In this document: positions 8,590-27,704 of the stretch, piece after piece
How the letters are laid out: the number at the start of each line of letters is the position of its first letter
Position numbering within the stretch: the first letter of the stretch is position 1
Virus record (IMG/VR): IMGVR_UViG_3300008262_000197
Span: 1 to 32,122 of that record
DNA length: 32,122 bases
Origin: a virus
Reading direction: 5' to 3' (one strand)
Position numbers and translations under genes: made by a program
Notes under the pieces: model-generated
Told to the model about the DNA's origin: nothing
What the model saw: only the letters and a program-made list of their open reading frames with translations
Database searches by the model: none

Positions 8590-10089
8590 ATGGCCATAGA
8601 AAAACGCTCACCTGAAAAACCCGGTGGTACCAAACTACCCGTAGGTATAATGATGGCCAAGGTGGTTGGTTATCTTGACCCATCGTTTATGTGCGGCCTT
8701 GAAGTCACTCTGTTGAGAGAAATTGGCAACGACATTGGAGACAGCGGACAAAGTTACAGTGTAAAATATGCCAGCCCTTTTTATGGATCTACTGCATATG
8801 AAAACATGGGCCAGAATGTGGCCGATTTCAATGACACGCAGAAAACCTATGGCATGTGGTTCCCTGCTGTGGAAATAGGTACCACAGTATTAGTAGCCTT
8901 TGTGAATGGTGATGCATCTGAAGGTTATTTTATAGGCTGTGTGCCCGGTAGATTTATGAATCAGATGATTCCAGCCATAGGAGCATCGTCAGCCTTTGAA
9001 GCCACCGCAGAACAAAAAAAGAAATACGATACTACCTTGCCTTTGCCTGTAGCAGAAATTAATAGAAAAGCCAACACTCTTGAAAAAGGCACAAACACTG
9101 AAAAAATAAAAAAAGCCATACACCCCATAGCTGACAGATTCTTAGAACAGGGTCTATTAGAGGATGATGTTAGAGGAATAACCACGTCAAGCGGTAGACG
9201 CATGGTACCTAATTCAGTATTTGGTATCTCAACTCCCGGCCCATTTGATAGAGGCGCCAATGCCAAGAAACAATTCATAGGCAGTCCGCAGAGCAAAAGT
9301 CCTGTGCAACTTCCGGCCAGTAGACTTGGAGGTACTACCCTAGTAATGGATGACGGTGATGATCGTTTTATTAGAAAAAAGCCTGCAGGCGAAGGTCCAG
9401 TCGAATATGCAGAAGTTGAAAAAAAAGAAAAAGGCAACGTAGATATTCCCTTTAATGAATATTTTAGAGTGCGTACTCGTACCGGTCATCAAATACTTTT
9501 GCACAATAGCGAAGACTTAATTTACATAGGAAATGCACGTGGTACCGCATGGATTGAATTAACCAGCAATGGAAAAATTGACATCTATGCTGAAGACAGT
9601 ATTAGTATACACACTGAGAATGATTTAAATTTTCGTGCCGATCGAGACATAAATTTTGAAGCTGGCCGCAATGTGAATATAAAAGCAGCTGGCGGAAAAA
9701 TGCAATTAGAATCAGTTGGCAGCGTGAATATAATTGCTGCTGCAGATGGCAAGATCACTGTGGGAGCAGGATTTGATCTTGTATCGGGATCAGGTACGAA
9801 ATTGTCTTCAGGCGGAGCGACTAACATTAAATCATCAGATACCAATATTGACGGTGGCAACATTAATTTAAATTCTGGACTGGCAGTAGCAGCAACTCCT
9901 GCTTCGCCGTTGAGTACTCATACTAATCCTAAAACTAGTTCTAGCAGTGAATGGGTTAACAAAAAGAGATATCAGAATGGTACTATGACAAGCATAATGA
10001 AACGAATTCCAATGCACGAACCTTGGCTGCTGCATGAAAATCAAGCGCCAACACTGCTAACACCAACAAGTACTGATAGAGATACATAA
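8590..10089 (+). CDS. 5: Baseplate hub spike gp5, lysozyme domain absent
   Basis: This 499-residue protein is the spike at the centre of the baseplate. Residues about 15-125 form the OB-fold: GIMMAKVVGYLDP at the start and VLVAFVNGDASEGYFIGCVP at the end. Residues about 293-430 are a stretch of short strand repeats of the type IDIYAEDSISIHTENDL and INFEAGRNVNIKA, the beta-helix that makes the needle, as in T4 gp5 and VgrG. Between them, where T4 gp5 carries its lysozyme, I see a linker and no Glu/Asp/Thr lysozyme motif. The C-terminus ends with MKRIPMHEPW, a segment I recall as conserved in marine phage gp5. An AGGA six bases before the ATG overlaps the end of the preceding gene. Confidence 0.85.
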   Translation: MAIEKRSPEKPGGTKLPVGIMMAKVVGYLDPSFMCGLEVTLLREIGNDIGDSGQSYSVKYASPFYGSTAYENMGQNVADFNDTQKTYGMWFPAVEIGTTVLVAFVNGDASEGYFIGCVPGRFMNQMIPAIGASSAFEATAEQKKKYDTTLPLPVAEINRKANTLEKGTNTEKIKKAIHPIADRFLEQGLLEDDVRGITTSSGRRMVPNSVFGISTPGPFDRGANAKKQFIGSPQSKSPVQLPASRLGGTTLVMDDGDDRFIRKKPAGEGPVEYAEVEKKEKGNVDIPFNEYFRVRTRTGHQILLHNSEDLIYIGNARGTAWIELTSNGKIDIYAEDSISIHTENDLNFRADRDINFEAGRNVNIKAAGGKMQLESVGSVNIIAAADGKITVGAGFDLVSGSGTKLSSGGATNIKSSDTNIDGGNINLNSGLAVAATPASPLSTHTNPKTSSSSEWVNKKRYQNGTMTSIMKRIPMHEPWLLHENQAPTLLTPTSTDRDT

Positions 10090-10569: not shown

Positions 10570-13500
10570 ATGACCACAACGTCTAGACAAAACAACTTGA
10601 TATTGAACGAAGACTGGACTAGAATCTACCAGACTTTTCAAAATGCCGATTTCAAAAGCTACGATTTTGAAAATCTTCGCAGAGTCATCATTGCCTATTT
10701 CAGAGAAAACTATCCAGAAGATTTCAACGATTACATTGAAAGTTCAGAATATCTTGCCTTAATTGATGCCATTGCTTTTCTAGGACAAAGCCTATCTTTT
10801 AGAATAGATCTAGCTAGCCGAGAAAATTTTATCGAGTTGGCAGAACGTAAAGAAAGTGTTTTACGTCTTGCAAAAATGTTGAGTTATAATGCCAAGCGCA
10901 ATCTACCGTCAGTTGGGCTGTTGAAATTTGACACCATAAGCACCACTGAAAGTGTGTTGGACAACAACGGTAAGAATCTAGCGCAACAGACCATTGTATG
11001 GAATGATCCCACTAATTCTAACTGGGTAGAACAATTTGTCACGGTGTTAAATGCTGCGATGACAGATAACACAGCATTTGGTCGCAGCCAAGGGTCTGCA
11101 ACAATTGACGGAATACCCACAGAACAATATCGATTTAGAACATCGTCGAGCGACGTGCCTATTTTTACCTACAGCAAAATAGTAGCAGGTCGACAAATGA
11201 CATTCGAATTAGTCAGTACCAGTTTCAAAGGCAAAGAAGAAATCTACGAAGAATCTCCAGTCCCCGGTAATCAATTAGGATTTGTGTATAGAAATGATGG
11301 TAAAGGTGGAACCAGTGCTAATACTGGATTTTACCTAATGTTCAAACAAGGTAGTCTGCAGCTGGCAGATTTTTCAATTGATATTCCTGCAACGAATGAA
11401 TTAATTGCTGTGGACAGCAATAATATCAACAACAACGATGTATGGTTATTTGCATTGAATTCGGCAGGCGTACAATTAAACGAATGGACCAAAGTATCCG
11501 CTCTCATAGGTAATAACATATCATACAACAGTATTAATAATAATATTAGAAATATCTATTCAGTGATCACAAAAGAAAATGATAGAATTGATCTAGCGTT
11601 TGCAGACGGAGTATATGGTAATCTGCCTCAAGGATCGTTTAGAGTCTATTATAGAACCAGTAATGGTCTCAGCTATCAAATAGCACCAAACGAAATGCGC
11701 GGTATTAGTATTGCTGTGCCCTATGTCAGCAAATCAGGAGTCCGTCATACACTAACATTGACCATGAGTCTCAAATCTACCGTGAGTTCATCTTCTCCAA
11801 GTGAGTCCCTAGCTTCAATTAGAACAAATGCTCCTGCGCAATACTACACACAGAATAGAATGATAACCGGAGAAGACTACAATCTCGCCCCATTATCTAC
11901 TTCACAGAACATTCTCAAAGTAAAAGCAATCAATAGAGTATCAAGTGGAATCAGTAGAAACTATGACTTAATTGATGCCAGTGGAAAATATTCCAGCATA
12001 AATGTATTTGCTGCCGATGGACTCATTTATAAACAAAACGTTGAGAAATCCTTAGCATTTAAATTCACAAATAGAATTGATATCATTAATTTTATACGCA
12101 ACAGTATCGAACCTATTTTCACTTCTGCAGATACTTACAATTTTTATCTCACTAAATTTGACAAGATCTTGTTTAGTGATACAAATTATCGCTGGAAACA
12201 GATAACCACAGATGTGAATAATTCTACCGGATATTTTTACAATTTTATTGATAATATAATTTTAAAAGTTGGATCATATACCACTAGCACACTGCAATAC
12301 ATCACTCCAGGTACACTGGTTAAATTTACAGCACCAGCAGGTAAGTCTTTTAGACGCGGTAAATTGGTTACCACCGATGCCAACGATCCTGAACAGAAAG
12401 ATCGATTGTGGACCAAAGTGATTAAAATTACTGGCGACGGCACCAATGCAGGTGTGGGAATTCTATCTTCCGGACTGGGAGCAGTTCAGTTTAGCGACGT
12501 TATCCCATCAGAAGCCATTGCTACAAGGATAGTGGCTAAATTTGTGAATAATCTTCCTAACGGAATAGAAAATGAAATGATCAACCTAATGTTGGCCAAT
12601 CTCAATTTTGGCCTGCGTTTCTCTGTAAGTGATTCAACTTGGAAATTAGTGGCCACTGCCGATTTAAATCTTCTTAATGATTTCAGCCTTGGTAAAAGTG
12701 GTGACACAACCAGTCAAAATTTAGATTCGTCATGGATTATTGCATTTGTCAAACAGGCAGATGAATATTTTGTTAGAATACGTGGTTTAGAGTATGTGTT
12801 CGGCAGCCTAGAAGAAAATAGATTTTACTATGATAGCTCACAAAAAACCTATAACGGTAAAACCGGTGATGTGGTCAAAGATCAAATTAAGATTTTAGGA
12901 ATTAATCCGGACAGTAACCTTTTGAATCCTCTGAAGCAAGATATAACTTTTGCTATTAGTGATGCTATTACCTTTGACGACGGATATCAAAGTACAGAAG
13001 AAATCAAAATTGAATTTTATGATTCTGATAGCGATGGAGTAATTGACAATCCCGAAGCATTTGAACAGGTAGCGGGACTAGATTTTGATTTGAAATTTTT
13101 ATTCTTTCAAGAATCTGTAGACGTGGCAGGTAATAAAATTAGACAATATGTTGATAATAGTGATAACGCTATTATTGTGATCCAGAAAGAAAGTCTGATT
13201 AATGTTAATGACTATGCCGACGGTCAATTGATCTACTTCTATGATAGCAATGAAAATGTGATCAAGCGAGTTGATCGAAACACAAATACTTTGGTATTAG
13301 AAAGTTCATACACTGCAAATTACGGCAGAGCAGGACTTAAATTCCAATACATTCACAATGCTAATGTTGATCGCAGAATTGATCCTAGCTCTAGCAATAT
13401 TGTTGATGTGTATCTTTTGACACGAAGCTATAACACTGCATTTAGAAATTATCTTGCAGGCGCAGCCAAGAAACCAGATGAACCAAACAGTGATAGTCTA

Positions 13501-13971
13501 CGAATTGCATTTGGTTCAAATTTAGATCTAATCAAATCTATATCCGATGAAATAATATATCATCCTGTGGCCTACAAGGTGTTGTTTGGATCAACTGCCG
13601 ACGTGCAGTTCCAAGCAAAATTTAAAATAGTTAAAAATTCAAATAGACTAATCAACGACAACGATCTAAAAGTTAAAATTATAAATGCTATCAACGAATT
13701 TTTTGATATCAATAATTGGGATTTTGGTGATAGATTTTACGTCAGTGAATTGGTCACATATGTGATTAACACAGCAGCTCCAGACATCAGCAACATGATA
13801 ATTCTGCCAAGACAGATTACACAGTCATTTGGTAGTTTGTTTGAGATACAAAGCAGAGTTGATGAAATTTTTGTCAGCGGCGCTACAGTAGATGACATAG
13901 AAATTGTAACTGCAATTTCTGCTTCGGAACTTAGAATATCCGTTGATTCAGTTATATCGAGTACAAATTAA
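10570..13971 (+). CDS. 6: Baseplate wedge protein gp6, extended form
   Basis: This 1133-residue protein is the gp6 wedge component that forms the ring around the hub. The N-terminus is typical: WTRIYQTFQNADFKSYDFEN, LRRVIIAYF, then EYLALIDAIAFLGQSL and LAERKESVLRLAKMLSYNA (about residues 15-115). The part around 380-460 (ESLASIRTNAPAQYYTQNR, ITGEDYN) matches the core of baseplate J/gp6 proteins. The C-terminal part (about 960-1090), with LRIAFGSN, YHPVAYKVLFG and FYVSELVTYVINT, also fits. T4 gp6 has 660 residues; the extra length sits mostly in the middle (about 480-930) and includes an EF-hand-type loop. AGGA seven bases before the ATG sets the start. The next gene begins two bases after the stop. 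Confidence 0.9.
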   Translation: MTTTSRQNNLILNEDWTRIYQTFQNADFKSYDFENLRRVIIAYFRENYPEDFNDYIESSEYLALIDAIAFLGQSLSFRIDLASRENFIELAERKESVLRLAKMLSYNAKRNLPSVGLLKFDTISTTESVLDNNGKNLAQQTIVWNDPTNSNWVEQFVTVLNAAMTDNTAFGRSQGSATIDGIPTEQYRFRTSSSDVPIFTYSKIVAGRQMTFELVSTSFKGKEEIYEESPVPGNQLGFVYRNDGKGGTSANTGFYLMFKQGSLQLADFSIDIPATNELIAVDSNNINNNDVWLFALNSAGVQLNEWTKVSALIGNNISYNSINNNIRNIYSVITKENDRIDLAFADGVYGNLPQGSFRVYYRTSNGLSYQIAPNEMRGISIAVPYVSKSGVRHTLTLTMSLKSTVSSSSPSESLASIRTNAPAQYYTQNRMITGEDYNLAPLSTSQNILKVKAINRVSSGISRNYDLIDASGKYSSINVFAADGLIYKQNVEKSLAFKFTNRIDIINFIRNSIEPIFTSADTYNFYLTKFDKILFSDTNYRWKQITTDVNNSTGYFYNFIDNIILKVGSYTTSTLQYITPGTLVKFTAPAGKSFRRGKLVTTDANDPEQKDRLWTKVIKITGDGTNAGVGILSSGLGAVQFSDVIPSEAIATRIVAKFVNNLPNGIENEMINLMLANLNFGLRFSVSDSTWKLVATADLNLLNDFSLGKSGDTTSQNLDSSWIIAFVKQADEYFVRIRGLEYVFGSLEENRFYYDSSQKTYNGKTGDVVKDQIKILGINPDSNLLNPLKQDITFAISDAITFDDGYQSTEEIKIEFYDSDSDGVIDNPEAFEQVAGLDFDLKFLFFQESVDVAGNKIRQYVDNSDNAIIVIQKESLINVNDYADGQLIYFYDSNENVIKRVDRNTNTLVLESSYTANYGRAGLKFQYIHNANVDRRIDPSSSNIVDVYLLTRSYNTAFRNYLAGAAKKPDEPNSDSLRIAFGSNLDLIKSISDEIIYHPVAYKVLFGSTADVQFQAKFKIVKNSNRLINDNDLKVKIINAINEFFDINNWDFGDRFYVSELVTYVINTAAPDISNMIILPRQITQSFGSLFEIQSRVDEIFVSGATVDDIEIVTAISASELRISVDSVISSTN
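13021..13056 (+). other. EF-hand-type calcium loop inside gp6
   Basis: Residues 818-829 of gp6 read DSDSDGVIDNPE. Asp is at positions 1, 3, 5 and 9, Gly at 6, Ile at 8 and Glu at 12, which is a full match to the 12-residue EF-hand loop. Flanking helices are not obvious, so it may be a dockerin- or thrombospondin-like single calcium loop in the inserted middle region. Confidence 0.6.
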
Positions 13972-13973
13972 AA

Positions 13974-16900
13974 ATGGCAGATAAAATATTTCCCAACAGC
14001 GGTCTACCTATTAGAAAAACTTCTGAACTACTCCCACAGATTTTTCAAACGGAAGCAAATCAAAAATTTCTAGCAGCGACTCTGGACCCTCTGACTCAAC
14101 CAGGTGTACTTGAAAAGAAAGTGGGATATATAGGCAGAAGATACGGCAAAACATTTAATACCAAAGACATATATCTTGACAGTGACGAAACACTAAGAAG
14201 TAGATATCAGCTAGAACCAGCAGTTGTGGTTGAAAAAGATCAAAAGGTTACTGACTTTTGGGACTATATAGATTTTAAAAATCAAATAAAGTTTTTTAAC
14301 AACAACGAAGAAAGAGACGACTTAATAGTATCGCAGGATCACTATACTTGGAATCCTCCTATAGAATGGGACAAGATGGTCAATTATCGTGAGTACTATT
14401 GGGTGCCTGAAGGTCCACCGCCAATTAAAATTCTTGGCCAAGCGCAGAACATCACTAGCACCTATCGTGTGAGATCTGGTGTGGGTAGCGTTTTTATATT
14501 CACACCAGATGGCTTGACCAACAATCCTGCAATCACCTTGTATAGAGGGCAGACTTACAAATTCCAAGTTGCAACACCAGGCAATCCATTTATCATTAGA
14601 ACCAATGTTGATACAGGTACATTGCAATACAATCCTGTATTCCCCTATGTCCAAGGCCAGCTCACTGTGTTTGATGGTAAGATATGGAAGGCCAAAAAAA
14701 ATATCAATCCTGCAGACGGCAGCACCATAGATGAAAACAGTGATGATTGGGAGTTTGTTGATGCAGCCAACGAGACTACTTCGTTTGACTATACCAAAGG
14801 ATTGACCAATAACGGAACTGAAAATGGCACCATAACTTTCACTGTGCCTCTAGATGCACCCGATGTGCTATTCTATCAAAGCTTCACAGATCCCAATAGA
14901 TTTGGTCGTTTCATAATTGCTAATATTGAAAGCAATACTAAAATTGATATTGAAAAAGAGATTCTTGGTAAAACCACATATACCAGCAGCAATGGTATAA
15001 CTTTCAGTAACGGCATGATAGTTTATTTTACTGGCACAGTATCACCGGCAAAATACAGTAATCAATCTATGAACAACAAATGGGTAGTAGAAGGTGTAGG
15101 AGAAAAGATTTCATTGATCAATGTTGCTGATCTTGTGGTATCTGCTACATTTTCAAATTCTTCGCCAGAAATCTTATTTGATAATGGTGGATTTGATACT
15201 CAACCCTTTGATGATGCTGCTGCATTTCCTAGCAACAAAGATTATATCACAATTAACAGAGCCAGTGCGGATTCTAATCCATGGTCAAGATACAACAGAT
15301 GGTATCACAGGGCAGTCCTAGATTATGCTCATGGCCTAAATCAATCTAGTTTTTCAGCAGATGAAACTGCTAGAGCAAAACGTCCTATAATAGAATTCAA
15401 ATCAAATTTAAAATTATACAATCACGGATCACTGGCAATGCCTGCAGTGGATTATGTAGACGATTTTACCACAGATGTATTTTCAGTTATAGAAGGCAGT
15501 AGCGGATATATCATCGATGGCGAAAGTCTTTTTGATGGTGCTAGAATTTTGATAACCAACGACACTGACAAGTTGGCAAATAATCAAATATACACAGTGA
15601 AATTTATTAGGCATGTCAACTCAAGACAAATCAGTCTGATAAGAAGTTCAGAATTAGATCCCACAGTGGGAGAGTGTGTGTTAATTAGACTGGGCCTTGC
15701 AAATCGTGGATTCATGTATCACTTCAACGGCACCAACTGGATCAAGAGCCAGACAAAAACAAGTGTCAATCAAGCCCCATTATTTGATATGTTTGATGCT
15801 GATGCTGTAAGTTTTGGTGATAGTGAATCATATCCCGTGAGCTCGTTTGTGGGCAGTCCGATTATCAGCTACAAACAAGGCATAGGTGTTGTTGACAACG
15901 AGCTAGGCTTTGCTATCAGTTATCTTAATATAGATAATGTTGGAGATATACAGTTTGCTTGGAATCTAGACAGTGATGTTTTTAACTACACCATCGATAA
16001 AAAACTGTATTATAAAAATCTAGCCACAGGATTTTACAAATTTAACACAGATGAACAGTATGACAATGGTTGGTTAAAACTAGATCCTGATTTTGTGCAA
16101 CCTATAATAGATACAATTACTGTAAATTCTATTACTAATGAACTTGTCACATCAGTAGTAGATTGGACCACACTTGCAGATGACAAGATAGCAAAGATTT
16201 TATTTTATCTCAACGGTGTACAACTACGTGACACCTATACAAGAAACATCAACACCTTCACTTTCACAACAAATTTTGCTGTTGGCGATGTTATCACAAT
16301 TAAATTATTTGCAGACACTGTGCCTGACCTAGGATATTATGAAATACCAATGGGTCTGGAAAAAAATCCTCTAAATGAAAGAATAAACACATTTACTCTC
16401 GGACAGGCATCTGACCATATTTCTAGCGGACTAGAAATGCTAGATAATTTTGTTGGGCGATATCCTGGCAGTAATAATCTACGTGATATCAGTGGATTTC
16501 AAAATCTTACTAGACGATTTCTAAAACATTCTAGTCCCGCCCCACTGTCGATAGCATTGTTATGTGATAAAGAAATCAATATCATCAAGTCTATACAGTA
16601 TGCCAAAAAAACCTATACAGATTTTAAAAACAGTTTCATCACACTAGCCAATGAACTGTACTATGATCAAACTCCAAAAGATTTTGTAGATTCTATACTA
16701 GAAGAAATCAGCAGATCACAAAATTCTACCAGACCCTTTGCCGGATCGGACATGATCGGTAGTGGAGCATATTCTACAATAGACTACACAGTAGAAGACA
16801 CCGGGATCAAAACATTTGCACTGTCTGAAAAATTTGATCTTGCTACACTTAGTTCTCGAGCAGTCTATGTGTATTATAACAATCAACAGCTTTTACATGC

Positions 16901-19900
16901 TAAAGACTATGAGTTTAATTCAACTTTTGGTTTTGTAAATTTAAAAATACAGCTTGCTGAAAACGATAAAATTCAAATTAGAGAATACGTATCGACGGCT
17001 GTGAATTTTATTCCACCAACTCCTACCAAGCTAGGATTATATAAAAAATATCTACCTAAAAAATTCTTAGACGACACCTATGTCGAACCAAAAGAAGTAA
17101 TTCAAGGACACGACGGAAGTATCACTGTTGCCTATGGTGATTTTAGAGATGATGTTTTACTTGAACTTGAATACAGAATCTACAACAATATCAAACAAGA
17201 ATATAAAGAAAATGTGTTTGATATTGATCTTGTGCTAGGCGGTTATTACGGAAACTCGCAGTATAACAAACTCCAAGTTGACAGTATTGTAACTGCTGAA
17301 TTTTTGAAATGGATTCAAGGCACTAGCATTGACTACGTAAAAAACAGTTATTTCGATTCTCAAAATTCTTTCACTTATACCTACAGCAACATGACTGATC
17401 CTACGGGCACAGTGAATCTTCCAGGGTATTGGAGAGGAGTTTATCAATGGTTTTATGACACAACAAGACCGCACCAATCGCCTTGGGAAATGTTGGGATT
17501 CTCTGAAAAACCCACATGGTGGGAAAGTGAATACGGTCCAGCACCCTATACTTCAAATAATTTAATTCTGTGGGAAGATCTTAGAGATGGCATAATTCGT
17601 CAAGGTGATCGTGCCGGCACATACGACAGGTATAAGCGTCCTTCAATCATGCAACACATCCCCGTAGACGGAGATGGCCAATTGTTGAGTCCTTTAGATT
17701 CTGGTCTTGCTGGCAATTTTTCATTGGTCAATAATCAAGGAGCTTTTCAACTTGGAGATCTAGCTCCTGTAGAATTTGCATGGAGGTCCAGTAGTGAATG
17801 GCCATTTGCTGTCATGTCAGTATTGTCATTGTTGAAACCTATGGAATTTATTGCAGACGGTTTCAATCGAAGCGCAGTAACCACAAATATTCTTGGACAA
17901 ACAGTTAATACAAATACACAGATGTTTCTGACCATGGATGATTTAGCATATGAATCCACTGTAGATCAGCCAGTGTCAGGATTGGTAATTTATATTGTAA
18001 ATTATTTAAAAAGCACAGCCACTACCCCTACCAATCTAGAAGACAAATTGTCAAATATTAATGTTAAATTATCCAATCGATTAGCAGGGTTTGTAGACCA
18101 GGCACAACAAAAATATGTATTAGACAGCAAGAATCCAAAATCGACTTCTAGCAGTATTTTTATCCCTCCAGAGAATTATGACATAATTTTTAATGTTAGC
18201 GCACCAATTGCAAATCTTGTGTACAGCGGAGTAATCGTAGAAAAAACTAACAGAGGATATAAGATCAATGGTTACGATACTTCCAATGCCTTTTTCAATT
18301 ACTATACCGCTATACAATCTCAGCGTGACCCTGTCATCCAGGTAGGGGGAGTCAGCGAAAATTTCTTTGACTGGGAAAGTGAAAAATTCTATGGTAATGG
18401 GGTAGTAATTAGACATCTAAATCAATTTTATCGCAGTATACGCAGCCATACCAGTGGCACCGCATTTGAAGAAACTCCTAATGGCACAGCAACATGGAGG
18501 AAATTAGCAGGAGCCCCTATCACTGGTGGCATCAATGCTTTTAGAAGAAGAAATTTCAACAAACTTAAAATAAGAAAATTATTCTATGGCGAAGTAGTAA
18601 ATGATATTCAACAGGTGATAGATTTTATTCTAGGCTACCAAGAATATCTCAAAAGCGTGGGATTTGTTTTTGATTTTTACGATTCACAGTATCAAGCAGC
18701 TAGAGATTGGTTTACTTCTGCTAAAGAATTCATGTTCTGGAGTCAGCAGAATTGGTCTGAGGGATCGCTGTTAACACTTAGTCCAGCAGCATCGTTGTTG
18801 AAAATTAACTTCGCAGTTGGAGTAGCAGACAACGTATTAGATAGTTTTTATGATTATCAGGTGTTAAAGGATGATGGTACCCCGCTGTCACCTCAAAATA
18901 TCAATGTCAACAGAGATTTTCAAACTATAAGTTTATCAACTATCAATACAAATCAAGGAATTTATTTCTTAAAATTAAACTATGTTCTCAAAGAACATGT
19001 GGTTGTGTTTGATGATCGAACAGTTTTCAATGATGTTATCTATGATAAACCTACAGGATATCGTCAGGAACGAATCAAGAGCCGTGGGTTCCGTACAGTA
19101 GATTGGGATGGTGATTATACCAGTCCTGGATTCTTGTTTGACAATGTCAACATACAGATTTGGCAACCTTTCACAGACTATAAACTTGGTGATATTGTTG
19201 CTTATAAATCGTATAATTGGACCAGCAGGTATAGCCAACTAGGCTCTGCAGAATTTCAAGATGCTGGTTGGACAAAACTTGATTCCACTCCAACTAAATC
19301 GTTAATTCCAAATTTTGACTATAGAATAAATCAATTTGAAGACTACTATGAAGTAAACACCGACGGTGTCGGATCCAGCCAACGAAATCTTGCAAGACAT
19401 GCCATAGGATATCAGCCTAGAGAATATCTGGAAAATTTAGCCGAAGACGAAATTACGCAGTTTAGAATTTATCAAGGATTTATCAGAGAAAAAGGTACAG
19501 CCAATGCTATTGTCAAGGTGTTTGATAAAATCAGTCGAACAGATGACGACAGTGTGGTACTAACAGAAGAGTGGGCATTTAAAATAGCGCAATACGGTGG
19601 CACAGATCAAACCAAAGAATTCGAATTTGAAATAAAAAAAGATGCTTTCCTTATCAATCCTCAACCTATATTAATAACCTATAGTGAAGATACGGGGATT
19701 GTTTTAGATCAATATCTAAGAATAAAATCTTCTAACTTTACCCTAGCCGATACTCCTTTTACTACAAATCTCAACCCATTAATTGACTATGATGGGGTTA
19801 CTAGATCTGCAGGTTATGTTAATAAAAAACATGTGGATTTTATTTTCAAAAACAAAGATGACATTCTTGATCTAGATATTAGAACAGTGTTTGACAACAC

Positions 19901-22900
19901 ACACTTTTGGATCACGTTTGATAAGTCTTCGTGGACAGTGTTGCGTTACAACGAAGAATTGGCGTTGAGAATCAGCAGAGTTGAAAAATTATCCGAAACT
20001 CAAATAGAACTGACATTTGAAAGACCGCATAATTTTGCAGTTGACGATATTGTAGGCGTCACATACGTATTGAATCTCAATGGATTCTTTAAGATTACAT
20101 CAGTCACACGCAATGCCATTATTGTGGCACCATCGTCTACTGATGTGCCAGAAATAGAAGATAGTACCTCCGCAGTGGTAGGAATTTTCACCACAGTGAG
20201 ATTTGCAACTTATGCAGAATTAGATGATCAAAAAACTGCACTGCTTGGCCTTGGATCAAAACTCTGGGTGGATAACAACGGCGACAACAAATGGGAAGTT
20301 GTAGAAAAAACCAAACAATATTCAACTTTTGAATTTACAGAATACGGGATTACCGCTCCTCTTGGCACGGGCACCGCTGTAGTGTATCTAGACAGTCTCA
20401 AACAAATTGCTACCAGCATTCCAGACTCGGGTTACGTGATGATTTATACAACACAGACTGCTGGATCACAATTGATATTGAAACAGATAGTGCCCCCACC
20501 CAACGATTTTGATACAGCAGTATTAGGATCATTTGGTAAGGTATTAGCAGTGAGTCCTGATCATAGATGGTTGGCAGTTGGCTCACCAAATGCCAGCGGT
20601 GTAAAAAGTGGCTATCTAGGCGAGCTAAATCAGTCTGTCAGTTATCTCGTAGGCGAAACTGTGTTATATCAGGGAAAACTTTGGGAAGCTGTGAATAACA
20701 TCAGTGTAGGGGACGGCAGTTCTATTAATTTCAACAGTGAAGATTGGAAACCAGCCACTATAATCAATGCCAATCCTGCAGCCAGAGGAAATGGATTTAC
20801 AGATCAGGGCATGATCTCTCTGTATAGGTATTTTCAGGGACAATGGGAAATTGCTCATAATTTTGTGAGTCCCCGCCAAGCAGCATTTGAACAATTTGGC
20901 AGTGCTATCTCAATTGGTGTATCCGGCAACACCTATTACATGGCAGTGTCGGCAGTGGGCTCGCTGTGCGACCCGGCACTAGGAGCCAATACAGGTCGAG
21001 GCCGCGTATATCTATATTTCTACAACGGTACAGAATGGCAGCATTTAGAAAACACCAAATACCTAGGATTATATCAGACATCGTCTCTAATATTCTATCC
21101 GGCCGGATCGATAGTATGGTATCAGGGAGATTTGTATGAATCGGTGATTGACAATCAAGGTGGCGCAATATTACCCACGGTGCTGACTAATTGGAGAAAA
21201 TTAGATCCTGTGTCCACGCAATGCTCATTGCCAACAAATGTGGCCATGGATGATGACGGATCAACACTTGCAGAAGGCCTATTGAGTACAAGCCAGTTGG
21301 CAGAACTAGTCAAGGACGGAGACCAATTTGGTATAAGTTTGACCATGAGTCGAGATGGCTCAGTGTTAGTTATAGGCGCCCCTAATTCAGACGGACAGTA
21401 TTTTTCTAACTACAAAGGCAATTGGAATCTGTACCAGGAATACACAGAAGGCGATGTGGTCAAATGGCAGGGCGGATATCACAGGTTGATAGATGCAACT
21501 ACATCATCTATAACCAGTCTAGCAGATTATCCAGATAACGGATTGCCTTGGTCAAATATAGGCGACAGTGCGTCACCTTCCACCGGCAAGATTTTTATAT
21601 ATGAAAGAGATGCCAATAACAGATATTCCCTGCTACAGACCATAACTGCAGATTCACTGTCAGATATCAATGACACCGGAAACGGTGGAATTATAGCGTC
21701 CGGAGATCAATTTGGATTTGCCATAGACATAGATGCCGCCGCTACTACCATTGTGGCCAGTAGTCCGTTGGCAGATATTACCAAACAGAATCAAGGTGCT
21801 GCCTATGTGTTTAAATTTGACAGCGATTCTTCTGTGCGTCAATTTAGATTGAAACAAAAATTACAGAGTTTTGAATATTTCACCAATGAATATTTTGGTT
21901 CCAGCATATCTATAAGTCCATCTACAGAAAAGATCGTAGTGGCTGCCAAGAATGCAGGATACTCTATTACCACGCAATTTAATTTTACAACCTTTGACAA
22001 ACGTAGAACTACATTTTCCGATCCTAGGGGTTTCCCAGGACAGGTCTATGTCTATCAACGAAAAGACACTGGTTATTTCTTGGTAGAAAAACTAGAAGCA
22101 GAGTTTCAGTCAGGTGAATCGTTTGGATACTCTATCGACACCACCAGCTCAATCATTGTGGTGGGTTCACCTACTTATCAAGTTGACGGCGCTCCAGCAG
22201 GACGAGTAAGACTGTTTAAGACATCTACTGATACAGATAGTTTTAAAACTATCGGTCAACAAAACAAACTTATAGATGTTGATCTACTGCAAAACATTGA
22301 ATTATTTGACAATGTTAACAACATAAAAATCACTGATCTGGATATTGTAGATGGATATAAACTAAAAATACTAGGAATAGCCGAACAAGAAATTAGCTTT
22401 AAAACTGTGTATGATCCTGCAATCTATATCACAGCCACTGAAGAACAGGTTATAGATGAAACTCAGGCATGGTTCGAAAAACCTGTGGGACAGATATGGT
22501 GGGACCTTAGCACGGTAAAATATTTGAATTATGAACAAGATGATTTTGCCTACAGAATTGGCAATTGGAATTCGCAGGTAGTCGGGTCTTCTATAGATAT
22601 CTATGAATGGGTAGCAAGTCCGTTACTACCATCAGAATGGAGCATCTTGGCAGATACCGTAGAAGGTCTTGCAGAGGGCATATCTGGTCAGCCAAAATTC
22701 ATAGATGATACTGTGTACAATACCAAAGTATTTTTTAACCCCAATACCGGGCTGGCCACAAGCACACTACATTACTATTGGGTAAAATCTAAAACTACCT
22801 TGCCGTCATTGGCTCAGCGAAAAATTTCCGCCAGCGCCATACAGTCGGCCATTGCTAACCCCATAGGCACAGGTGCTGCATTTATGGCAGTGATCGGTGA

Positions 22901-25900
22901 GGACAAATTCTTAGCTTATAATTTGCCCACTGTGATCAACACTGATACTGCGTTAATTAATTTTGAATACATCAAAAATCGCAAGCAGTTGAACGCAGTT
23001 CACAGAGAATATCAATTGTTGACCAACGGTGTTGCTGACAGCTTGCCTACGGCTACACTTGAAGAAAAATGGTTAGATAGTCTTGTGGGTGAAGATCGTG
23101 CTGGTAACGCAGTTCCAGATCCAAAACTTCCCGCAAAGAAAAAATATGGACTCGGTGTAAGACCCCGTCAAAGCATGTTTGTGAATAGAGACAAAGCATT
23201 GAAAATTGCCATAGACAATATCAATGATATCTTATTGACTAGACCGTTTGCAGATACTATTAACTTTGAAAATCTCAATAAATTAGATCCTATTCCCGGA
23301 CAGCTATTAAATCAGTACGATGTTATCGTTGATTCTAATATTGATCTCGAACAAGTGGGTACTGTAAAAATTCGCCAAGCAGAGTTTTTTGCAAATATTA
23401 TCAATGGTGAAATTGATACCATTGATATTGTAGATCCAGGATTTGGATATAGAACTGTGCCATATGTAGAAATCCAAGGAGATGGATTTGGAGCCACAGC
23501 AGTGATTACACTTAACAATCAGGGCAAGGTCAACTCCATAACACTTACATCAAAAGGAAAAAAATACTCCACAGCCATAGTGAAAATCAGACCATTTTCG
23601 GTGTTATTAGTCAGTGACAGCACAGCCAATGGATTTTGGAGTATCTATGGATGGGACCAACAACGCAGAATTTTTTACCGTAGCAAATCTCAAGGCTATG
23701 ATACCACTGTCTATTGGGAACTTATAGATTGGTGGGATCAAGGATATTCTCCGAGCTCAAGAATAATTAAAGAAATTGACAATATCTATCAAGAACCTTC
23801 TATAGAAACCCAAGTGGGAGATCTAATTAGAATAAAAGAATATTCTAATGGCGGATGGGCAGTATTGGCGAGAACTGAAGAGGATCAAGGAACCCTGTTG
23901 GACAACTACAATCTTGTGGGTAAACAGCGTGGCACAATAAGAATCAAAGATATATTGTACAATAGACTGGTCAACAGCTTGGGTTATGACAATGTGGGAT
24001 CCTATGATGCTGCCTTGTACGATCTTCAACCAACCAAAGAACTGAGATTTATCCTTAAGGCCGCCAAAGAAAATATTTTTGTTGATGATCTCACAGTGGA
24101 ATGGAACAAGTTGTTCTTCTCATCTATCAAGTATGCTTTCTCAGAACAGACCTACATTGACTGGGCATTCAAGACCAGTTTCTTAAACGCCACACATAAC
24201 GTTGGTGCATTAGATCAACCTAAAAATTACAAAAATGACAATCTACAAAGTTTTCAACAATATATAGAAGAAGTAAAACCCTATAGAACCAGCATTAGAG
24301 AATATACCAGCAGATACACCAATCTTGATATCAATGGTGCTGCAACTTCTGACTTTGATCTGCCACCAGCCTATTCAGTTAGAGATGGAAAGATACTGCC
24401 TGTAAATCAATACTACAATAGACTTGATGAATACCCTTGGAAGTCTTGGCAAGAAAATAACGGCTACTCAATCACTGCTATTTCTGTATCCTATGGTGGT
24501 AGTGACTACACATCACCTCCTACGGTATTAATTCAAGGCAATGGATCAGGTGCCACAGCACAGGCATTTGTTTCCAACGGCAGAGTATCAGGCATACAGG
24601 TCATCACTCAAGGATCTGGGTATACGGGTATTCCTGTAATCAGTCTAGTTGGCGGTAATGGAGCATCAGTGAACATTGCAAAAGCAGCAGCAGTGCTGGG
24701 CAGCAGCAAGGTAAGATCTTTTGATATCACTATGAGATTTGACAGAACCAACAAAATAGGAACTTATAGTCAGTTGTCAAATACTCAGTCGTTTACAGCC
24801 ACCGGATCAAGTGCAATCTTTGATTTAATCTATGCACCTACTAGAGATAAAACCAAGATTTCAGTGATAAAAAACAATCAAACAGTGTTGAATACAGAAT
24901 ATGAAATAGATCTCTATACATCCAGTACAGACACCTATGGGTTGTTAAAAGGAAAAATAAAATTCTATATATCACCCTTGGCTGGAGATGTAATTGTTGT
25001 TACCTATGAAAAGAATGATCTATTATTAGACAGTGTGGATAGAATTAACAAATATTACGCTCCAACAAGTGGTATGAAAGGACAAGAATTAGACCAGCTA
25101 ATGACCGGTATAGATTTTGGAGGTGTGCAAGTGCAGGGCACAACCTTTGAAGTTACCGGAGGCTGGGATGCTCTTCCTTGGTTTACAGACAGTTGGGACA
25201 GTGTAGAATCCAGCAATGATTTTTATTATGTTGCAGACGGCAGTACCACATTTGTGTCCTTGCCTTACACTCCAGAAAACAATCAGCCAATATCAATCTA
25301 TATTCAACGATCAGGAACTAATCGACCTATCAGAATCGACGACCCGTTGTACGATCCCAGTTTAGATTCCAGTGTGCGCACAAATGCTAATGCAGAAATG
25401 CCAACATTTATCGGAGATGGTTCTACAAAAATTATAGAAATACACAGATACCTAAGTACTCAGCCTGGTGATACACTAATCTTCAGAAAATTAGATAGTG
25501 ACGGATCTGTAACAATCAGTGATGTAAATCTTCTAGACACTAGGATCAGTGGCGGTACATTAGCCAATATAGGCGGCGCCTATGTTTCAGCATCTGGAAT
25601 GACTCCAGAAGAAATAGTCATAGACGGTGAAAAATTTGTCAGTCCGGATCAAGTACCAGCACCTGAGGAAAATGTTCCAGGACAAATTCTAGACAGTGTA
25701 AGTATAAAAGTTTTCAACAAAACTGATCCAGGAGCTGCTCCTTTACAACATCGTGGATACATAGGGGATGGATCTACTCGTAGATTCAAGATTGGACTTA
25801 CCATAGTAGAATCTAAAGCAGTCACAGTATATGTGAATAAAATCAAACAGGAATACATTGGAGATAGCACTATTAATTTCAGTATTGATTTTGTGGAAAA

Positions 25901-27704
25901 TGAAATTGAATTTAATCTTGCCCCTGCAATCAGCGATATAATAGAAATTGTATCTATAGGCATAGGCGGTATTGGAATAATCGACTACCAAGAATTTGTA
26001 GCCGACGGCACAACAAACTTGTTTTTAACCAATGCTCAGTATGCACAGACTTCAGCAGTGTTGGTCACACTAGATGGTGAAGAAATAGATACCGGATTTG
26101 TAAACAGCTCTGATTTTATCAGCGTTGAAAACAAAACCATGGTTCAATTTGGAGTAGCACCAGGATTTAGGCAAGTGATAAAAATAATATGTTTTGAATC
26201 CAGTGAATATTCTAATTCTAATAATCTCAGTTTTGTTAGAATAAATCAACAGACTGTGCCGTTTGACGGCAGCACTCGCAGTATTCCTGTAGATCAATTT
26301 GTTAATCTACAAAGATCGTCTGAAATATCTTCGGTGCTAGTCAATGTCAATGGAACTTTCTTACAGGGAATCGATACCACTTATCTTGTATATGACGGTA
26401 CAAACAATAATATCACCTTGGGAGTAGATCCTGCAGAGTCTATTGGAACTATTACGTCGGGTGGTATAAAGGTCTATATCAACGAAGTGTTACAACAGTT
26501 TGTGATTAATTTTACCTATAACGGAAACGAAAATTTAATCAACATTCCCGCAGAAAATCTCACACTAGGTGATGTTATAAGAATAGAAACTAATGTAAGA
26601 GCTGAATATTCTATAGTTGGAAATAATCTTGTGATTCCTGCCACTGTGGATCTGTCTCTCAATGATGATATACAGATAATCTGTTTCAGTGAATATCCAA
26701 CACTGAATATGATTACCGACGAATATACCGGAGGTCGTATACAGTTTCAACTGCCAAGACAACCTATAGATGAGAATTTTATTTGGGTGTATAAAAATGG
26801 TCAACGATTGACCAAAGATGCAGACTACAGATTAGATGCTCCAAGATCAGTGATATATCTCACAGAAGATTCAACAGTGAATGATCTTATAAAAATAGTG
26901 CAGTTTGGCAATATCATATACAAACCAAATCGTGCATTTGAAATTTTCAAAGACATGCTCAACAACTATCATTACAAACGGCATTCAATATCAAAAACTA
27001 TTAGACTGGCCAAAGCACTAAACTACTATGACACTGAAATTGAAGTCACTAACAGCAGTGAATTATCTAATCCTATACCGAGTAGACGAATTCCCGGAGT
27101 GGTTATCATTAACAATGAGCGTATTGACTATTTTGAAAAGAATGGCAATATTTTGTCACAGATACGTCGTGGCTGTTTTGGCACAGGAATTGCAGAAATC
27201 CATGCCGCAGGCAGTTATGTTATAAATGCAGGTGCCAATGATACTCTGCCCTATACAGAGAATCAAGAAAAATTTAATTTTATTAGTGACGGTAGTACAT
27301 TACTGATTGGTCCTCTAGATTTTACACCAACTCAAGCAGTTCGAACTAGCTGGTACAGAAATTCTATTCCTTCTAGCTACGGTGCCTGCGATCAAGTGGA
27401 AGTGTTTGTGTCGGGCAGACGATTGCGTAAAAATCCTTTAGATGTATATGTGGAATCTAATGGAGCCAGCAGTCCATCGGCAGACGAGATTGTAGAAGCT
27501 GAATTTTCAGTGAGTGGAACTACTCCCTACATCAGGCTGACTGAACCTGTGGCTGCGGGGGCTAAAATTACAATTATAAGGAAATTGGGAAGAATATGGT
27601 ATGAGAGAAGTGAGTTTTCTGCCAGCAAGGGTGTGACACTGTTGTCTAATCACACTCCTATTGCAGAATTCATTGCTGCCAAGACCTCTGAATTGCCCGA
27701 ATAA
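13974..27704 (+). CDS. Giant 4576-residue mosaic baseplate/fibre protein
   Basis: The protein occupies the slot after gp6 where T4 has gp7, and is about 4.4 times longer than gp7 (1032). I recall related N-termini (PNSGLPIRKTSELLPQIFQ, GYIGRRYGKTF) in marine T4-like phages, annotated only as structural. Order of parts: N-terminal wedge-like region (1-180); cupredoxin-like domain with an inserted small module (186-315); long beta-rich region with repeated 'YLNGVQL..VGDVI' sandwich units (about 700-1010); an aromatic block with SPWEMLGF and PTWWESEYGPAPY (about 1160-1190); two more small modules (1472-1513, 1730-1770); six FG-GAP-like blades with three modules inside (2187-2750); GxGY modules (3145-3207, 3499-3576); DGST modules (3749-4490); and a C-terminal PGVVIINNERIDYF region. 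No enzyme motif or signal peptide is evident. A role as gp7-like wedge plus surface-contacting arms is inferred from position and domains. It starts two bases after gp6. Confidence 0.85.
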   Translation: MADKIFPNSGLPIRKTSELLPQIFQTEANQKFLAATLDPLTQPGVLEKKVGYIGRRYGKTFNTKDIYLDSDETLRSRYQLEPAVVVEKDQKVTDFWDYIDFKNQIKFFNNNEERDDLIVSQDHYTWNPPIEWDKMVNYREYYWVPEGPPPIKILGQAQNITSTYRVRSGVGSVFIFTPDGLTNNPAITLYRGQTYKFQVATPGNPFIIRTNVDTGTLQYNPVFPYVQGQLTVFDGKIWKAKKNINPADGSTIDENSDDWEFVDAANETTSFDYTKGLTNNGTENGTITFTVPLDAPDVLFYQSFTDPNRFGRFIIANIESNTKIDIEKEILGKTTYTSSNGITFSNGMIVYFTGTVSPAKYSNQSMNNKWVVEGVGEKISLINVADLVVSATFSNSSPEILFDNGGFDTQPFDDAAAFPSNKDYITINRASADSNPWSRYNRWYHRAVLDYAHGLNQSSFSADETARAKRPIIEFKSNLKLYNHGSLAMPAVDYVDDFTTDVFSVIEGSSGYIIDGESLFDGARILITNDTDKLANNQIYTVKFIRHVNSRQISLIRSSELDPTVGECVLIRLGLANRGFMYHFNGTNWIKSQTKTSVNQAPLFDMFDADAVSFGDSESYPVSSFVGSPIISYKQGIGVVDNELGFAISYLNIDNVGDIQFAWNLDSDVFNYTIDKKLYYKNLATGFYKFNTDEQYDNGWLKLDPDFVQPIIDTITVNSITNELVTSVVDWTTLADDKIAKILFYLNGVQLRDTYTRNINTFTFTTNFAVGDVITIKLFADTVPDLGYYEIPMGLEKNPLNERINTFTLGQASDHISSGLEMLDNFVGRYPGSNNLRDISGFQNLTRRFLKHSSPAPLSIALLCDKEINIIKSIQYAKKTYTDFKNSFITLANELYYDQTPKDFVDSILEEISRSQNSTRPFAGSDMIGSGAYSTIDYTVEDTGIKTFALSEKFDLATLSSRAVYVYYNNQQLLHAKDYEFNSTFGFVNLKIQLAENDKIQIREYVSTAVNFIPPTPTKLGLYKKYLPKKFLDDTYVEPKEVIQGHDGSITVAYGDFRDDVLLELEYRIYNNIKQEYKENVFDIDLVLGGYYGNSQYNKLQVDSIVTAEFLKWIQGTSIDYVKNSYFDSQNSFTYTYSNMTDPTGTVNLPGYWRGVYQWFYDTTRPHQSPWEMLGFSEKPTWWESEYGPAPYTSNNLILWEDLRDGIIRQGDRAGTYDRYKRPSIMQHIPVDGDGQLLSPLDSGLAGNFSLVNNQGAFQLGDLAPVEFAWRSSSEWPFAVMSVLSLLKPMEFIADGFNRSAVTTNILGQTVNTNTQMFLTMDDLAYESTVDQPVSGLVIYIVNYLKSTATTPTNLEDKLSNINVKLSNRLAGFVDQAQQKYVLDSKNPKSTSSSIFIPPENYDIIFNVSAPIANLVYSGVIVEKTNRGYKINGYDTSNAFFNYYTAIQSQRDPVIQVGGVSENFFDWESEKFYGNGVVIRHLNQFYRSIRSHTSGTAFEETPNGTATWRKLAGAPITGGINAFRRRNFNKLKIRKLFYGEVVNDIQQVIDFILGYQEYLKSVGFVFDFYDSQYQAARDWFTSAKEFMFWSQQNWSEGSLLTLSPAASLLKINFAVGVADNVLDSFYDYQVLKDDGTPLSPQNINVNRDFQTISLSTINTNQGIYFLKLNYVLKEHVVVFDDRTVFNDVIYDKPTGYRQERIKSRGFRTVDWDGDYTSPGFLFDNVNIQIWQPFTDYKLGDIVAYKSYNWTSRYSQLGSAEFQDAGWTKLDSTPTKSLIPNFDYRINQFEDYYEVNTDGVGSSQRNLARHAIGYQPREYLENLAEDEITQFRIYQGFIREKGTANAIVKVFDKISRTDDDSVVLTEEWAFKIAQYGGTDQTKEFEFEIKKDAFLINPQPILITYSEDTGIVLDQYLRIKSSNFTLADTPFTTNLNPLIDYDGVTRSAGYVNKKHVDFIFKNKDDILDLDIRTVFDNTHFWITFDKSSWTVLRYNEELALRISRVEKLSETQIELTFERPHNFAVDDIVGVTYVLNLNGFFKITSVTRNAIIVAPSSTDVPEIEDSTSAVVGIFTTVRFATYAELDDQKTALLGLGSKLWVDNNGDNKWEVVEKTKQYSTFEFTEYGITAPLGTGTAVVYLDSLKQIATSIPDSGYVMIYTTQTAGSQLILKQIVPPPNDFDTAVLGSFGKVLAVSPDHRWLAVGSPNASGVKSGYLGELNQSVSYLVGETVLYQGKLWEAVNNISVGDGSSINFNSEDWKPATIINANPAARGNGFTDQGMISLYRYFQGQWEIAHNFVSPRQAAFEQFGSAISIGVSGNTYYMAVSAVGSLCDPALGANTGRGRVYLYFYNGTEWQHLENTKYLGLYQTSSLIFYPAGSIVWYQGDLYESVIDNQGGAILPTVLTNWRKLDPVSTQCSLPTNVAMDDDGSTLAEGLLSTSQLAELVKDGDQFGISLTMSRDGSVLVIGAPNSDGQYFSNYKGNWNLYQEYTEGDVVKWQGGYHRLIDATTSSITSLADYPDNGLPWSNIGDSASPSTGKIFIYERDANNRYSLLQTITADSLSDINDTGNGGIIASGDQFGFAIDIDAAATTIVASSPLADITKQNQGAAYVFKFDSDSSVRQFRLKQKLQSFEYFTNEYFGSSISISPSTEKIVVAAKNAGYSITTQFNFTTFDKRRTTFSDPRGFPGQVYVYQRKDTGYFLVEKLEAEFQSGESFGYSIDTTSSIIVVGSPTYQVDGAPAGRVRLFKTSTDTDSFKTIGQQNKLIDVDLLQNIELFDNVNNIKITDLDIVDGYKLKILGIAEQEISFKTVYDPAIYITATEEQVIDETQAWFEKPVGQIWWDLSTVKYLNYEQDDFAYRIGNWNSQVVGSSIDIYEWVASPLLPSEWSILADTVEGLAEGISGQPKFIDDTVYNTKVFFNPNTGLATSTLHYYWVKSKTTLPSLAQRKISASAIQSAIANPIGTGAAFMAVIGEDKFLAYNLPTVINTDTALINFEYIKNRKQLNAVHREYQLLTNGVADSLPTATLEEKWLDSLVGEDRAGNAVPDPKLPAKKKYGLGVRPRQSMFVNRDKALKIAIDNINDILLTRPFADTINFENLNKLDPIPGQLLNQYDVIVDSNIDLEQVGTVKIRQAEFFANIINGEIDTIDIVDPGFGYRTVPYVEIQGDGFGATAVITLNNQGKVNSITLTSKGKKYSTAIVKIRPFSVLLVSDSTANGFWSIYGWDQQRRIFYRSKSQGYDTTVYWELIDWWDQGYSPSSRIIKEIDNIYQEPSIETQVGDLIRIKEYSNGGWAVLARTEEDQGTLLDNYNLVGKQRGTIRIKDILYNRLVNSLGYDNVGSYDAALYDLQPTKELRFILKAAKENIFVDDLTVEWNKLFFSSIKYAFSEQTYIDWAFKTSFLNATHNVGALDQPKNYKNDNLQSFQQYIEEVKPYRTSIREYTSRYTNLDINGAATSDFDLPPAYSVRDGKILPVNQYYNRLDEYPWKSWQENNGYSITAISVSYGGSDYTSPPTVLIQGNGSGATAQAFVSNGRVSGIQVITQGSGYTGIPVISLVGGNGASVNIAKAAAVLGSSKVRSFDITMRFDRTNKIGTYSQLSNTQSFTATGSSAIFDLIYAPTRDKTKISVIKNNQTVLNTEYEIDLYTSSTDTYGLLKGKIKFYISPLAGDVIVVTYEKNDLLLDSVDRINKYYAPTSGMKGQELDQLMTGIDFGGVQVQGTTFEVTGGWDALPWFTDSWDSVESSNDFYYVADGSTTFVSLPYTPENNQPISIYIQRSGTNRPIRIDDPLYDPSLDSSVRTNANAEMPTFIGDGSTKIIEIHRYLSTQPGDTLIFRKLDSDGSVTISDVNLLDTRISGGTLANIGGAYVSASGMTPEEIVIDGEKFVSPDQVPAPEENVPGQILDSVSIKVFNKTDPGAAPLQHRGYIGDGSTRRFKIGLTIVESKAVTVYVNKIKQEYIGDSTINFSIDFVENEIEFNLAPAISDIIEIVSIGIGGIGIIDYQEFVADGTTNLFLTNAQYAQTSAVLVTLDGEEIDTGFVNSSDFISVENKTMVQFGVAPGFRQVIKIICFESSEYSNSNNLSFVRINQQTVPFDGSTRSIPVDQFVNLQRSSEISSVLVNVNGTFLQGIDTTYLVYDGTNNNITLGVDPAESIGTITSGGIKVYINEVLQQFVINFTYNGNENLINIPAENLTLGDVIRIETNVRAEYSIVGNNLVIPATVDLSLNDDIQIICFSEYPTLNMITDEYTGGRIQFQLPRQPIDENFIWVYKNGQRLTKDADYRLDAPRSVIYLTEDSTVNDLIKIVQFGNIIYKPNRAFEIFKDMLNNYHYKRHSISKTIRLAKALNYYDTEIEVTNSSELSNPIPSRRIPGVVIINNERIDYFEKNGNILSQIRRGCFGTGIAEIHAAGSYVINAGANDTLPYTENQEKFNFISDGSTLLIGPLDFTPTQAVRTSWYRNSIPSSYGACDQVEVFVSGRRLRKNPLDVYVESNGASSPSADEIVEAEFSVSGTTPYIRLTEPVAAGAKITIIRKLGRIWYERSEFSASKGVTLLSNHTPIAEFIAAKTSELPE
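14529..14918 (+). other. Degenerate cupredoxin-like domain split by an inserted module
   Basis: Residues 186-315 of the giant protein begin with AITLYRGQTYKFQVATPGNP and resume after an insertion with TNNGTENGTITFTVPLDAP and DVLFYQSF. This is the pattern of phage cupredoxin-like beta-sandwiches (RGxTYxF, xHPFxI, NNG, ITFTVPxDAP, LYYxCxxH). The copper-binding Cys, His and Met of the last loop are absent: the segment reads QSFTDPNRFGRF. The domain is therefore structural only. A 39-residue carbohydrate-binding-like module lies in its middle. Confidence 0.55.
14646..14762 (+). repeat. CBM5/12-like module 1 (residues 225-263)
   Basis: The pattern is Y-x-x-G, a strand, VFDGKIWKAKKN, then a short acidic loop and a closing DDWEF. 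It matches the small three-stranded aromatic fold of carbohydrate-binding families 5/12. It lies inside the cupredoxin-like domain. Confidence 0.5.
18387..18512 (+). repeat. CBM5/12-like module 2 (residues 1472-1513)
   Basis: FYGNGVVIRHLNQFYRSIRS, then PNGTATWRKL. The pattern of aromatic residues, the middle QFYRS strand and the closing W agree with the other modules. The GD-V-x-Y part is weaker here (GNGVVIR). Confidence 0.45.
19161..19283 (+). repeat. CBM5/12-like module 3 (residues 1730-1770)
   Basis: WQPFTDYKLGDIVAYKSYNW, then DAGWTKLD. This is one of the clearest copies: W, Y-x-x-GD-x-V-x-Y, a second aromatic strand and a closing GW-x-KLD. Confidence 0.55.
20643..20756 (+). repeat. CBM5/12-like module 4 (residues 2224-2261)
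   Basis: YLVGETVLYQGKLWEAVNN, then NSEDWKPA. It is a clear copy, inserted after the first FG-GAP-like blade core. Confidence 0.6.
21096..21206 (+). repeat. CBM5/12-like module 5 (residues 2375-2411)
   Basis: YPAGSIVWYQGDLYESVIDN, then LTNWRKLD. It is a clear copy, inserted between the second and third FG-GAP-like blade cores. Confidence 0.6.
21441..21566 (+). repeat. CBM5/12-like module 6 (residues 2490-2531)
   Basis: YTEGDVVKWQGGYHRLIDA, then NGLPWSNIGD. It is a clear copy, inserted between the third and fourth FG-GAP-like blade cores. Confidence 0.55.
23406..23594 (+). repeat. GxGY beta-module, copy 1 (residues 3145-3207)
   Basis: IDTIDIVDPGFGYRTVPYVE, then GDGFGATAVITLNNQGKV and SITLTSKGKKYS. 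It has the repeating plan (I-x-x-GxGY-x-x-P-x-V, GxGxGATA, x-G-x-V-x-x-I) found in many phage structural proteins. Confidence 0.6.
24468..24701 (+). repeat. GxGY beta-module, copy 2 (residues 3499-3576)
   Basis: ISVSYGGSDYTSPPTVLIQG, then GNGSGATAQAFVSNGRV, followed by a second half VITQGSGYTGIPVISLVGG. It follows the same plan as the copy at 23406, about 290 residues downstream of it, and is better preserved. Confidence 0.65.
25218..27460 (+). repeat. Run of DGST-type fibre-like modules (residues about 3749-4490)
   Basis: At least six units begin with ADGST, GDGST, FDGST or similar: YVADGSTTFVSL, FIGDGSTKIIEI, YIGDGSTRRFKI, FVADGTTNLFLT, PFDGSTRSIPV and FISDGSTLLIGP. Several continue with a strand like AVTVYVNKIKQEY and a closing xxGDxIxI. 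This is the common beta-sandwich unit of phage fibre and baseplate proteins. Confidence 0.6.

Follow-up and report, generated by a model that had tools for sequence, protein, structure and literature searches.

Does the baseplate of a very large phage carry a propeller from whose successive blades small modules project, and are those modules a repeating unit, binding domains, or neither? The question is raised by the window, as we term the whole stretch of DNA analyzed here (32,122 nt, IMG/VR record IMGVR_UViG_3300008262_000197), a 32-kb virus fragment. An earlier note on its sequence had read one giant gene in it as encoding FG-GAP-like blades, the first three intervals of which each hold one CBM-like module.

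Gene context and phage type

The giant open reading frame (13974..27704, plus strand) encodes 4,576 aa, contains the propeller, and is assigned to the gp7 position of the baseplate by PHROG matches and synteny. It matches PHROG 10938 (virion structural protein) and PHROG 438 (baseplate wedge). Directly upstream is a gp6-like baseplate wedge gene (10570..13971, plus strand; PHROG 10646, 3.9e-281), itself preceded by a gp5-like hub gene (8590-10089). This order of gp5-like, gp6-like and giant genes is kept in named jumbo T4-like phages, whose scaffold is homologous. A near relative (L011) sits on a 353-kb contig, and the uncultivated source phage was probably a very large (jumbo), T4-like phage. 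Homologues of the middle third of the giant protein were found in 87 named phage records, including those of jumbo phages PA5oct, 121Q, Atu_ph07 and SCTP-2. PA5oct gp355 is syntenic with the giant gene and its record notes ESI-MS/MS detection; homology to it suggests that the giant protein is a virion component. T4 gp7 was absent among the PDB-sequence matches of scaffold profiles A4–A6, a comparison made at the level of sequence profiles.

The giant gp7-position proteins of named phages (PA5oct gp355, 121Q gp582, Atu_ph07 gp180, SCTP-2 140, Phosso and XaC1) share the position downstream of gp6 and are homologous to the window scaffold at aa 15–160, 420–1930 and 2744–3470, but unlike in the window no propeller was detected at the corresponding site. 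XaC1 has just ~88 residues between the flanking aligned pieces there, and Atu_ph07 has ~1,500 other residues. Atu_ph07 does encode a stand-alone propeller “hemagglutinin” (A0A2L0UZX4, 393 aa, a BFVD match), separate from its giant protein, which is without this propeller; the stand-alone protein is a possible source of the insert. Querying named phages by tblastn with the window propeller gave no match, and with two relatives (L138 and L132) matched only the C-terminal scaffold, not the propeller, so no isolate bearing this propeller was found. In a scan of genome contigs the sole FG-GAP-like sequences matched, from Desulfonema and Marivirga, were distant ones, and hence no clue to the host. 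Searching PDB sequences with either the propeller or module 1 alone as query was unproductive; designed TIM barrels among those matches were judged to be chance.

Blade anatomy and predicted fold

FG starts lie at residues 2187, 2308, 2452, 2580, 2641 and 2717, with intervals of 121, 144, 128, 61 and 76 residues, exactly the spacing first reported. Residues 2187–2764 comprise six FG-GAP-type blades. Pfam FG-GAP_2 (PF14312) matches above its cut-off (1.9e-11), and all 26 relatives in alignment A3 match both FG-GAP_2 and CBM_5_12. A single-blade HMM found blade 1 split (2186–2208 and 2268–2293), blade 2 whole (2306–2356), blade 3 again split (2449–2483 and 2534–2557) and blades 4–6 whole, with values of 6.4e-19 for blade 4 and 3e-19 for blade 6; the best value for the reversed protein, used as control, was only 0.22. 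Cutting the inserts (slots of 68, 86 and 63 residues) to a normal short loop brings the intervals to ~59–71 residues, like the uninserted ones.

All features of the propeller are on the plus strand. From the blade HMM together with the AlphaFold2 strands, blade 1 has strands A–B at aa 2186–2208 (20529..20597) and C–D at aa 2279–2300 (20808..20873), and blade 2 is complete at aa 2306–2365 (20889..21068). The HMM places blade 3 strands A–B at aa 2449–2474 (21318..21395) and C–D at aa 2538–2560 (21585..21653), insert-free blade 4 at aa 2577–2634 (21702..21875), blade 5, with a B–C loop of 27 residues, at aa 2638–2711 (21885..22106), and the last blade, insert-free blade 6, at aa 2714–2764 (22113..22265). 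Just upstream of the six is a degenerate blade (aa ~2123–2173; 20340..20492), recognized from AlphaFold2 strands and preserved intact, as an FG-GAP repeat, in relatives L127, L138, L142, L114 and L132, of which L138 and L132 are distant. It had been missed in the earlier note, and our own six-bladed reading was dropped once it was recognized. Seven four-stranded blades are therefore predicted, six by HMM plus this N-terminal one.

By inspection, none of the window's blades has a DxDxDGxxD calcium-binding A–B loop; the A–B turns read SPDHRW, GVSGNTY, SRDGSV, DAAATT, SPSTEK and TTSSI. That motif is typical of calcium-binding FG-GAP repeats only, and its absence narrows the FG-GAP subtype rather than arguing against the fold. 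Between module 2 and blade 3 lies a strongly conserved segment (SLPxNxAxDDDGSTL...LAELVK, aa 2416–2447; 21219..21314), modeled with low confidence, in which a hairpin-like SLPTNxAxDDDGSTLAxGLL stretch is followed by a LAELVK helix. It resembles the A–B half of a blade and is retained in L081 and L089, both of which are without module 2.

An AlphaFold2 model of the window propeller region, made from an alignment with 26 relatives, had a mean pLDDT of 71 and pTM of 0.75, with most propeller strand blocks at ~80–95 and ABCD strands in the blades. Its top Foldseek matches in the PDB were integrin alpha heads (best E 2.8e-13; TMt 0.62 for the alpha-5 head), although TM-scores over the whole model were modest (TMq ~0.3–0.37, rmsd ~10 or more). 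BFVD matches were to FG-GAP proteins from phages and giant viruses, one of them the separate Atu_ph07 protein. A module-free relative (L118), folded alone from a second alignment with a mean pLDDT of 68, matched seven-bladed Gbeta/WD40 propellers (TMt 0.6–0.69). The propeller proposed at the outset was thus returned as the best PDB match by both predictions, and the region is predicted to be an integrin-alpha-like FG-GAP propeller of seven blades.

Intervals 1–3 between blade starts hold exactly one module apiece. Module 1 (aa 2217–2266; 20622..20771) interrupts blade 1 in its B–C loop, module 2 (aa 2372–2412; 21087..21209) lies in the D–A connector joining blades 2 and 3, and the divergent module 3 (aa 2484–2532; 21423..21569) interrupts blade 3, again in the B–C loop. 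The module 1 region matches Pfam CBM_5_12 (PF02839) at 28.5 bits against a cut-off of 26.2 (1.6e-6); modules 2 and 3 are assigned to CBM5/12 solely through kinship to module 1. Profile comparison by hhalign joined modules 1 and 2 with a probability of 98.5 and modules 1 and 3 more weakly (93), with no direct match between 2 and 3 (1.7). The closest relative of module 1 is a fourth copy outside the propeller (aa 219–261; 14628..14756, plus strand; i-E 7.5e-14 with the module-1 HMM), which went undetected in the majority of the distant scaffold relatives. The conserved scaffold has a further CBM5/12-like module (aa 1467–1510; 18372..18503, plus strand), where family profile A5 gives a match to the chitin-binding domain of ChiA1 (1ed7; E 0.0042). 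The family profile over blade 3 and module 3 matches PDB All3316/Cis13 (E 0.0087).

In any propeller the B–C loops and D–A connectors share one face, and the A–B and C–D loops the other. By this topology all three modules should leave from the same face, and so project together from it. The emergence of modules from successive blades that the earlier note had suggested is borne out by the blade HMM and by AlphaFold2 and Foldseek. As for the shared exit that it had wanted checked, a common face is what topology indicates, but a common loop position was not found, with two B–C loops and one D–A connector in use, which by the note's own test counts in part against its reading.

Loop contents among relatives

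A scaffold-alignment scan yielded 80 loci, from which 60 non-redundant propeller regions (window included) were aligned and then divided by loop into slots. Three modules were carried by 35 of these relatives, two by 23, one by one and none by one. The same three loops are filled in all of the 35, so the three-module pattern of the window is not a chance one. Judged by length, occupancy of the slots B1C1, D2A3 and B3C3 was 1,1,1 in 35 relatives, 1,1,0 in 19 and 1,0,1 in four, with extremes of 1,0,0 in L104 and 0,0,0 in L118. B1C1 measured ~66–88 residues in most, 21 in L118 and 531–781 in 14; D2A3 was at least 71 residues with a module and 22–55 without; B3C3 was either 58–91 or 3–13; and C2D2 was either 0–10 or 90–195. 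The 14 very long B1C1 slots (L114, L116, L120, L121, L123, L125, L126, L130, L132, L134, L136, L137, L139 and L141) all belong to the 19 relatives without module 3. Several of these long inserts begin like a CBM module.

Other loops were also used. GGxNYT-type modules occupy the blade 2 C–D hairpin, on the opposite face by topology, in L042, L044, L061 and L063; tandem CBM-like modules fill slots of L101 and L142; and long inserts occur at D3A4 in L081 and L105 and at B6C6 in L073 and L076. The GGSGYT/GGxNYT repeat module recurs in propeller loops of relatives and in the window itself at aa ~3140–3210 and ~3500–3570. An apparent loss of module 2 in L039 and L040 was rejected; the frame is broken in blade 2/module 2, probably by assembly error. 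On the scaffold tree the fewest changes needed were four for D2A3, two for B3C3, four for C2D2 inserts and one for B1C1.

The propeller is conserved while the contents of its loops turn over slot by slot, which identifies the propeller as the host fold and the modules as separate insertions. The regular one-per-blade pattern reported in the earlier note does not reflect a repeating unit of blade plus module, since each loop changes occupancy independently of the others across relatives. Duplication of a unit of blade plus module would readily give one module in each of three consecutive intervals, but the modules occupy two different loop types, module 1 is nearer to the copy at aa 219–261 than to modules 2 and 3, and occupancy varies by slot; we reject this origin as very improbable. 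Equally improbable is that the FG-GAP-like and CBM-like motifs simply follow one another along the chain and form no propeller at all, a reading with which the moderate overall confidence of both models (mean pLDDT 71 and 68) would agree, but not the agreement on propellers between predictions that used different alignments and lead sequences.

Precedents and possible role of the modules

The integrin alpha head, source of the best Foldseek matches, is a seven-bladed FG-GAP-type propeller, as the window region is predicted to be. Alpha-I integrins have an additional domain, which enters between two blades on the upper side of the propeller. We dropped the notion that module 2 takes the I-domain position, because the extra N-terminal blade shifts the numbering by one. 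Integrin is moreover a cellular receptor with one ~200-residue I domain, against several 50-residue modules in the window, and the window's blades are without the canonical DxDxDG calcium loops of integrin alpha. Among phages, T7 gp12 (PMC6702177) and the SU10 nozzle (PMC9509320) are seven-bladed tail propellers that house extra domains, either within a loop of a blade or at the junction of two blades. The likeness to the window is one of architecture, a domain inserted in a propeller loop, and we do not claim membership of the gp12 family. Unlike the window protein, these are podovirus nozzle hexamers lining a channel; their extra domains (Ig-like in SU10) enter at a single point, docks are present besides, and consecutive blades carry no run of small modules that can be exchanged. 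The arrangement, not known as described to the earlier note, is therefore familiar in general form from T7 gp12, SU10 and alpha-I integrins; in the literature searched, we found no description of a myovirus baseplate protein whose consecutive blades bear a set of small, exchangeable modules. It is the number and changeability of the modules that appear new.

The modules share with CBM5/CBM12 domains (ChiA1 1ed7, PfChiA 2rts) the core Y-x-x-G-(D/E)-x-V-x-Y-x-G-x-x-W/Y ... W, but are embedded in propeller loops and lack the exposed chitin aromatic pair. In CBM5 this Y-W/W-W pair is reported to be conserved and chitin-binding (PMC8449059). Hand alignment on the shared core puts NN, ID and ID at its position in modules 1–3, and a coarse pattern found the pair in only 2 of 68, 0 of 43 and 1 of 28 of the relatives' modules, respectively. 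The module 1 region does match the CBM5/12 core-aromatic profile, and conservation in the modules falls mainly on core residues. With the chitin-contacting pair missing, the label “binding modules” first given to them is unproven. Mean identity among near relatives was 0.45–0.51 for modules and 0.44–0.64 for blades; the modules are not hypervariable, unlike typical specificity-determining receptor binders.

True binding of chitin or GlcNAc polymers on the host, as by bacterial chitinases, would fit the above-cut-off Pfam match and the scaffold profile match to ChiA1. We nonetheless consider it improbable, given the replacement of the aromatic pair in all three window modules and its near absence among relatives. 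Quite possible, by contrast, is a structural role, in which the modules would be spacers or clips packing on neighboring baseplate or fiber proteins rather than on host glycans, with the propeller architecture unchanged. Absence of the chitin-contacting aromatics with retention of core residues suits such a role, as does the presence of related modules in the scaffold of the same giant protein. So too does Cis13 (All3316) of the Anabaena thylakoid contractile injection system, a contractile-machine protein with a CBM5/12 domain like module 3. Unlike the window protein, Cis13 is a small, propeller-free, tail-fiber-like trimer with a membrane anchor, joining baseplate and membrane (PMC8894136). 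A fixed protein–protein interface fits poorly, however, with cargo that changes so freely, by loss or by unrelated inserts of 90–780 aa.

The best explanation as a whole, to which we give about an even chance, is a display platform for weak multivalent adhesion. A predicted seven-bladed FG-GAP-type propeller lies between two conserved scaffold segments of the giant baseplate protein, and its loops would serve as sockets (the blade 1 B–C loop, the blade 2–3 connector and the blade 3 B–C loop), each taking one module of CBM5/12 fold. Sharing one face, the sockets would let the modules project jointly, and among relatives each has gained, lost, doubled or swapped its module independently on a constant propeller. 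The propeller would then be a rigid platform presenting modules outward from the baseplate, where they may make weak, multivalent contacts with host-surface glycans or polymers. Counting against it are the near absence of the chitin-contacting pair and the want of hypervariability in the modules, as well as the moderate confidence of the model and its modest whole-model scores to integrins. More tentatively, the propeller may be a multi-socket platform with three or more sockets, probably all on the same face, each module of which is exchanged separately so that attachment is tuned.

If this multi-socket reading is true, it would be a modular counterpart of tail-fiber tip exchange, within the baseplate itself. 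The ~60 natural variants, which range from a propeller with empty loops to one with several loaded, allow module gain and loss to be traced for each loop against a stable fold, and make it testable whether jumbo-phage baseplates bear an exchangeable adhesion surface of their own besides the tail fibers. A CBM5/12-like annotation in phage baseplates need not imply chitin binding.
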